A stretch of DNA of 34,761 nt from a virus: the IMG/VR virus record IMGVR_UViG_3300012920_000123, positions 1 to 34,761 of that record; one strand, given 5' to 3'. Both the position numbers and the translations under genes were made by a program. The stretch's first letter is position 1. Each line of letters opens with the position of its first letter. Shown here one piece after another: positions 11,570 through 12,424 of this stretch. The notes below the pieces were generated by a model that was not told the origin of the DNA, made no database searches, and worked only from the letters and a program-made list of their open reading frames with translations.

Positions 11570-12424
11570 TTATATTTCCCATAAGCCCTCCGCTTTTATT
11601 ATTGCATATCCTATTTCCGTTGCGATTTGCGGGACGATAGAATTTCCCAATGCTCTAAGTCTGTATACCCTGCCTGATACCCCATTAGCCACTCTACCCA
11701 CGTTGGGTTCAGTGCTCCACCAGCCTTGGTGCTCAGTGCCGTTCCCCCTTGTTTGTATTTCTCCTTCCTGTGGTGAACGTCGTCCTGCACTGGCGTTGGC
11801 CACATTAGATTCGGATGTGCTACCTGGTCGTTGATGCTTATCGGCATACCTTTCTCTAATTTCATTTTCATCCTTTTCTCCGAACTTGCTCCACGATCGC
11901 AGTGAGCGTCTGGAGTCCTCCAAACTTGCAACAATCCAGATCCTTTCTCTCCTGTGCGGGGCACCGACACCTGCAGCTGGAATATTGAACGCCCTGACTT
12001 CGTAACCTTCTCCTTCCAGGTCAGTGCACACAGATTCGAAGACCATGCCCTTTTCGATGTTAGTAAGGCCTTTGACATTCTCTCCAATAATCCACCTCGG
12101 GGTAAACTCTTTGATGATTCGAAACATCTCAGGCCAGAGATGTCTGTCGTCACTTGTTCCTTTTTGTTTTCCTGCAACACTGAAAGGCTGACAAGGGAAT
12201 CCTCCTGTGATGACATCTGGAAACTGAATTCCATCTGACTCGAGTTGTTCTTTGTTAATTTCTCTGACATCGTTATATATCTTAACTCCTTTCCAATGCT
12301 TTTGCAGCAACAATCTGCTGTATTTATTATTGTCACAAAAAGCTGTTGTTTTAAAACAACCAGTCCTTTCAAGACCTAGTGAGAATCCACCAAGTCCTGA
12401 AAATAAATCAAGAATTTTGAGCAT
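11570..12424 (-). CDS. dcm-like: DNA (cytosine-5) methyltransferase (284 aa)
   Basis: Transfers a methyl group from SAM to C5 of cytosine. Motif I LDLFSGLGGFSLGL (5-18), motif IV GGFPCQPFS with catalytic C78, motif VI GENVKGL (114-120), motif VIII RRERIWIVA (158-166), and motif IX/X RALGNSIVPQIATEIG (257-272). The target-recognition part (about 167-250) is short and hydrophilic. Short for Dcm-type enzymes but all key motifs are present. No cognate restriction enzyme was seen, so protection against host restriction is the likely role. Its N-terminus overlaps the nuclease gene by 17 bases. A second long frame lies inside it (see 11611-12372). Confidence 0.93.
   Translation of the reverse strand: MLKILDLFSGLGGFSLGLERTGCFKTTAFCDNNKYSRLLLQKHWKGVKIYNDVREINKEQLESDGIQFPDVITGGFPCQPFSVAGKQKGTSDDRHLWPEMFRIIKEFTPRWIIGENVKGLTNIEKGMVFESVCTDLEGEGYEVRAFNIPAAGVGAPHRRERIWIVASLEDSRRSLRSWSKFGEKDENEIRERYADKHQRPGSTSESNVANASAGRRSPQEGEIQTRGNGTEHQGWWSTEPNVGRVANGVSGRVYRLRALGNSIVPQIATEIGYAIIKAEGLWEI
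11611..12372 (-). other. Overprinted 253-codon frame inside the methyltransferase gene
   Basis: On the same strand, shifted +1 from the methyltransferase, this frame has no stop for 253 codons. Its translation carries ALTWKEKVTKSGRSIFQL (116-133), WRTP (151-154), MWPTP (190-194) and ALNPTWVEWLMGY (220-232). I recall stand-alone phage proteins with this same order ((L)TWK.K.T.S.R..FQL, WPTP, LNPxWVEWLMG.P.G.TDL), often near cytosine methyltransferase genes. The only starts are an upstream TTG (12372) and an ATG at 12270, whose AAAGGAG is 16-22 bases away. Expression is uncertain: it may be a real overlapping gene, or the ancestral frame from which the stand-alone family arose. Confidence 0.35.

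Follow-up and report, generated by a model that had tools for sequence, protein, structure and literature searches.

Does a phage cytosine-5 methyltransferase gene encode a second protein in another reading frame, and what part would such a protein play in the enzyme? The question is raised by a window of 34,761 nucleotides (the whole stretch of DNA analysed) from a phage, which encodes a portal, a terminase, a DNA polymerase, a primase and helicases. The original prediction placed a +1 frame open for 253 codons within the cytosine methyltransferase, and this is borne out on the minus strand, where 11611-12372 lies inside 11570-12424. We consider it quite probable that the two frames encode a nested alpha/beta cytosine-5 methyltransferase, in which beta carries motif IX and putative target-recognition modules, and which is used against host restriction. 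The two frames and the candidate start of the inner one are as follows.

11570..12424, minus strand: alpha chain, cytosine-5 methyltransferase ORF in the main frame, 284 aa (PF00145, phrog_363, M.HhaI structure match)
11611..12372, minus strand: beta chain, the +1 ORF, 253 codons, TTG start (ORF call, shuffle test, phrog_1008)
11611..12270, minus strand: beta from its first ATG, 219 aa, the likely product (sequence; homologues often have AAGGAG and then ATG)
12286..12292, minus strand: AAAGGAG, possible ribosome-binding site of beta, suggested by the sequence

The first ATG of the +1 ORF is residue 35, at window position 12270, and its distance of 15 nt from AAAGGAG exceeds the ideal spacing. 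Close to where the +1 ORF begins, many homologues carry an ATG behind a good ribosome-binding sequence (one instance is ACAAAGGAGAGT preceding the ATG), and AAGGAG ahead of the ATG at this place is frequent among them. The first 17 bases of the methyltransferase gene (window 12408-12424) are also the last of an exonuclease-like gene (phrog_298, 12408-13172), an overlap that suggests translational coupling of the two. Elsewhere in the window, a 1529-aa ORF at 26301-30890 has no PHROG match, and an ORF at 16098-16745, amid the replication genes, matches phrog_3704, which is labelled ferredoxin and classed as a moron or auxiliary gene.

Opening of the +1 frame and its relatives

A chance origin of the opening is excluded. 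With the methyltransferase protein held fixed and synonymous codons shuffled (20,000 shuffles per codon scheme), a +1 opening of at least 253 codons arose in 5e-5 of the 20,000 shuffles that used the gene's own codons, in which the longest +1 opening averaged 90 codons, and in 0 of 20,000 under the phage codon usage. Elsewhere in the window, long genes have +1 openings of 31-81 codons at most.

As anticipated, the +1 protein has a match among phage proteins, the phrog_1008 profile (8.8e-23), and phrog_1008 can be taken as the +1 family itself; a Kagunavirus beta ORF carries this annotation in its record. By tblastn, the +1 protein of the window matched 58 phage records and further family members matched up to 225 records per query, from phages whose hosts include E. 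coli, Klebsiella, Salmonella, Pseudomonas, Rhodobacter, Xanthomonas and Vibrio. Hundreds more relatives occur in IMG/VR and in bacterial genomes of many phyla. In a search of a viral library, the top matches were mainly other +1 ORFs or methyltransferases.

Over all loci fetched, in which some contigs are present more than once and most loci were found via their +1 frame, so that the sample is biased to open +1 frames, 354 of 360 +1-family ORFs of at least 100 aa lie exactly in the +1 frame of a methyltransferase ORF. Three others are in the methyltransferase's own frame, after indels, and the remaining three represent one single locus (L169), where the other frame holds no methyltransferase. 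The records differ in what they annotate: the methyltransferase alone (Bas73, fEg-Eco06, Esher4), the +1 ORF alone (PMG1, FoX4, phiKX1, W5_chr3, phiEc4, VIPECOMC04) or both frames (K1 phages, as 'Mte8-like protein'; Shelly, as 'g55 internal gene'). The 'stand-alone' phage proteins named in the original prediction are mostly annotation choices and most likely come from records that annotate one frame, the other or both. Dual coding stood, a stand-alone family outside methyltransferase genes proved mostly wrong, and the second subunit of a split methyltransferase had gone unmentioned. No earlier report of this nesting in phages came up in the literature searches.

Conservation of two stop-free frames

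In the cassette region, from motif VIII to the LNP segment, 46-65% of the differences among viruses fall at +1 third positions. In six of seven module families, just 8-18% of the differences fall at +1 second positions, which are the main-frame third positions, and identity is 79-87% in the +1 protein and 50-62% in the main frame; the seventh and most divergent family has 56% in +1 versus 33% in main. This third-position pattern, together with the higher +1 identity, indicates that the +1 product is the constrained protein in the cassette region. The E. coli Kagunavirus phages, an independent lineage, have 48% of their cassette differences at +1 third positions and cassette identities of 0.78 in +1 versus 0.74 in the main frame, and in their N-terminal part the main frame dominates.

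Observed +1 identity was also compared, in 400 homologue pairs, with the identity expected from the main frame alone. It is 0.362 versus 0.236 expected over the overlap with motifs IV-VIII, where the main frame is dominant, as the catalytic motifs would predict, and 0.560 versus 0.257 expected in the LNP segment. Upstream of the +1 start (motif I-II), the same pairs give 0.206 versus 0.200 expected, which is no excess, and past LNP, at motif X, the excess is small (0.202 versus 0.171 expected), so the excess +1 identity is essentially confined to the +1 ORF. Conditional on loci having been picked for an open +1 frame, a selection that bears far less on the codon-position and identity results, holding the main protein constant predicts 160 +1 stops over 83 cassette regions and holding the +1 protein constant predicts 376 main-frame stops over 84, and the ORFs studied have none of either; 3.4 of the 84 cassette regions were expected to be open in the main frame by chance, and across the N-terminal overlaps of 67 genes the expected number of +1 stops was 201.

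Some +1 similarity does follow of necessity from the conserved codons of the methyltransferase, as the expected identities of 0.236 and 0.257 show, and one canonical gene (L191) has a weak 62-aa +1 match. That main-frame constraint and base composition alone gave rise to the opening and the similarity, with no protein made, is nevertheless scarcely conceivable, since observed +1 identity is well above the main-frame expectation, the +1 frame is the more conserved one in the cassettes, and the openings are unexpected both in the shuffles and in the stop counts. The codon-position pattern refutes such an origin, unless something else, RNA structure for instance, constrains those positions. The shuffle test and the excess +1 identity likewise led to the rejection of pure chance and of carry-over from the main frame. 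Substitutions in homologues might have been found to break the +1 frame freely; when checked, they did not, as homologues keep the frame open and its sequence conserved. Dual coding is accordingly strongly supported by the shuffles, the codon positions, the excess +1 identity, the two open frames and the Kagunavirus lineage, and in the cassette region +1 is the selected frame.

Proposed parts of the enzyme in the two frames

The alpha chain belongs to the cytosine-5 methyltransferases (PF00145), with motifs I, IV (PCQ), VI (ENV), VIII and X, and its parts are these.

12383..12415, minus strand: motif I (ILDLFSGLGGF) (sequence)
12179..12205, minus strand: motif IV, catalytic PCQ (sequence)
12068..12085, minus strand: motif VI (ENV) (sequence)
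11927..11965, minus strand: motif VIII (GAPHRRERIWIVA) (sequence)
11717..11926, minus strand: variable region, a hydrophilic passenger sequence kept stop-free (codon-position and stop analyses)
11621..11671, minus strand: motif X region (RVYRLRALGNSIVPQIA) (profile alignment, sequence)

Alpha matches phrog_363 (1.5e-80), but its match to PF00145 (5.4e-49) covers residues 2-199 only, that to TIGR00675 ends at residue 192 and the structure match to M.HhaI spans residues 2-170. Since the matches end after motif VIII, alpha is the catalytic part and not a complete monomeric enzyme. The profile of the alpha family aligns to canonical columns 32-204 and 339-371 only, that is, to motifs I-VIII and then X, and by PF00145, TIGR00675 and this profile alignment the recognition domain and motif IX are absent between VIII and X of alpha. 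The corresponding parts of beta are as follows.

11923..12270, minus strand: N-terminal domain, overlapping alpha motifs IV-VIII (excess +1 identity over the main-frame expectation)
11974..12024, minus strand: LTWKEKVTKSGRSIFQL, predicted beta hairpin (model, sequence)
11803..11922, minus strand: module 1 (WRTPDAHCDRGASSEKRMKMKLEKGMPISINDQVAHPNLM), putative target-recognition module (module family identity 0.80 in +1 versus 0.50 in main)
11716..11802, minus strand: module 2 (WPTPVQDDVHHRKEKYKQGGTALSTKAGG) (module survey, sequence)
11656..11712, minus strand: LNPTWVEWLMGYQAGYTDL, resembling methyltransferase motif IX (profile alignment, column shuffles)

The three segments named in the original prediction, LTWKEKVTKSGRSIFQL (11974-12024), MWPTP and LNPTWVEWLMGY (11656-11712 with its tail), are all found in the +1 translation. 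Its assignment of motifs to the same bases is nearly correct, in that LTWK lies between main-frame motifs VI and VIII, the W-x-TP modules coincide with the variable region and LNP lies just ahead of motif X, whereas motif IX is not recognisable in the main frame. Across the family, the layout is an N-terminal domain with the predicted hairpin (LTWK..GR..FQL), 1-7 modules and then LNPxWVEWLMGxPxGWTDL. The cassettes are modular: among 698 modules from 258 proteins, the median length is 40 residues, nearly all open with W/L-x-T-P, and one module family occurs at differing positions with differing neighbours, while in near-identical Kagunavirus phages cassettes are present or absent as whole units. 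One cassette family, in the +1 frame of L063, L084 and L092, has a length of about 145 residues and includes a stretch that looks like a helix-turn-helix (TSVKELHEKTGIKKTTVEHWFRRDKAGFSHPSVEDW); a Pfam search with this long cassette gave weak matches at most.

For the profile built on the +1 C-terminus, the best alignment to canonical enzymes is at their motif IX columns, which fall between the two blocks of alpha. The LNP segment matches weakly and over a short stretch (E 0.011, probability 3.7%), but scores above 150 of 150 column-shuffled versions. A segment resembling motif IX is present in beta. In 25 bacterial genomes, full-length PF00145 methyltransferases are without a +1 relative, save for the one weak match at L191, and nearly all fetched methyltransferases whose match ends after motif VIII carry one.

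In the mechanism that we propose, alpha would be catalytic and carry motifs I-VIII and X, and beta, started inside alpha in the +1 frame, would consist of the N-terminal domain, the target-recognition cassettes and motif IX. Assembly of the two would supply the missing small domain, the phage would mark its own DNA with the enzyme against host restriction, and gain, loss or swap of a cassette in the +1 frame would change the set of methylated sequences. We infer the translation of beta, its assembly with alpha, recognition by the cassettes and the anti-restriction use. Against this reading stand the weak motif IX match, the low to middling confidence of the beta models, the 15-nt spacing of the possible ribosome-binding site in the window and the bias of the sample to open +1 frames.

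The +1 protein could be real and selected and yet do a separate job, such as blocking a host defence or binding host DNA, as a mere overprint outside the enzyme. Overlapping phage genes frequently differ in role, sequence searches of Pfam, NCBIfam and the PDB with the +1 protein recognised no family or domain, and fold searches (Foldseek and VIA-align of beta models against the PDB) gave no convincing match. The AlphaFold models were poor for the +1 ORF of the window with 33 close relatives (pLDDT 46) and better for beta with 141 diverse relatives (pLDDT 67). We nonetheless regard a separate job as unlikely, because alpha is without motif IX and a conserved recognition region and beta has the likely counterparts of these in exactly that place, because the +1 ORF is missing from canonical enzymes, and because the one detached copy still lies directly behind alpha.

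That copy is found at L169, in a Flavobacteriales genome bin, as a separate beta-like gene a few dozen bases past the methyltransferase stop, with its other frames closed and with the same kind of modules and LNPVWVEWLMGYPANWTK. The nested +1 frame of this locus has a recognisable N-terminal part, ends early, has lost its cassettes and has a motif IX decayed to NPTWPGRLLRLPKG-stop, an arrangement to be expected if beta were a separate chain and the nested copy dispensable. A second stand-alone relative of the L169 copy was present neither in 199 genomes of its order nor in 80 viral loci.

Other loci are irregular in different ways. The frames trade places in the variable region of L156, L161 and L170, and in L156 and L161 the motif-IX-like segment ends up in frame with motifs I-VIII; these swaps are probably indels or assembly errors, and the three loci were set aside. 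In two Synergistaceae genome bins (L144 at about 3585 and L160 at about 2220), GGFPCQ-stop stands at the catalytic motif, where an insert of 6 or 9 bases (TAACTG, TAACTACAG) precedes PFS/PYS, and the +1 ORF is still open. L113 changes frame at this same motif and carries, upstream of it, an insert that is HNH-like.

A programmed ribosomal frameshift, by which a single chain would run from main-frame motifs I-VIII into the +1 cassettes and motif IX, would likewise account for what the +1 frame contains, and the frames are joined or swapped at the three loci L156, L161 and L170. These loci resemble indels or assembly errors, however, and a frameshift is highly improbable given that +1 conservation extends far upstream of motif VIII, that many homologues have AAGGAG and ATG at the +1 start, that motif X remains in the main frame and that L169 has beta as its own gene.

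Comparison with known methyltransferases and meaning of the design

Lee, Kam and Shaw reportedly described, in 1995, the beta chain of EcoHK31I as read from another frame inside alpha. A smaller chain nested in another frame, reported for M.EcoHK31I and computed here for the phage family, would then be common to both; the pair in the window differs in being a phage gene. Phages SPR, phi3T and rho11s of Bacillus subtilis have multispecific methyltransferases in which several recognition modules, swappable and some 40 residues in length, sit between motifs VIII and IX. In this design they resemble the phage family described here, but a single chain holds their modules in its main frame, whereas those of the present family are in +1. 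For phrog_1008 and the 'Mte8-like protein' of E. coli K1 phages, the +1 protein family is the same, but the records say 'DNA methyltransferase' or 'Mte8-like' only and state no role as a second subunit.

M.EcoHK31I, which has been termed naturally split (PMC3439449), consists of two chains, and in the published description the larger contains motifs I-VIII, X and the predicted recognition domain and the smaller motif IX only (PMC3404938). By this published layout, the larger chain of M.EcoHK31I (YGGCCR) has motifs I-VIII and X without IX, as does alpha here. The same description assigns the predicted recognition domain to the larger chain, which stands against our nested alpha/beta reading and sets M.EcoHK31I apart from the phage family, where +1 is selected in that region and carries 1-7 modules. 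M.AquI (CYCGRG) is likewise a split methyltransferase and resembles the phage family in its natural division into catalytic and recognition halves (PMC3404938). It differs in that its smaller chain comprises the distal variable region, IX and X, whereas the phage family keeps X in alpha, and in that the phage-family chains are nested in different frames. The same source adds that fragments of several monomeric methyltransferases complement one another (PMC3404938).

Compared with M.EcoHK31I, the apparent difference is that in the recognition region selection acts on the +1 protein, which is modular; if the EcoHK31I beta chain is not nested after all, nesting as such would be more novel than is assumed here. 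We are inclined to think that this is a widespread phage family in which the specificity part lies in +1 over the catalytic gene, with exchangeable cassettes that would retune methylation while the catalytic chain is just kept stop-free there.

Nested genes for the two chains of one enzyme, earlier known as a curiosity from one or two restriction systems, are apparently a common, old and conserved phage design. The design accounts for the many phage cytosine methyltransferases that seemingly have no recognition domain, and one of the two nested genes is often dropped by genome annotation. The nested pair is also a clear system for the evolution of overlapping frames under different pressures. 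If the cassettes set specificity, phage methylation patterns would be predictable from the +1 frame.
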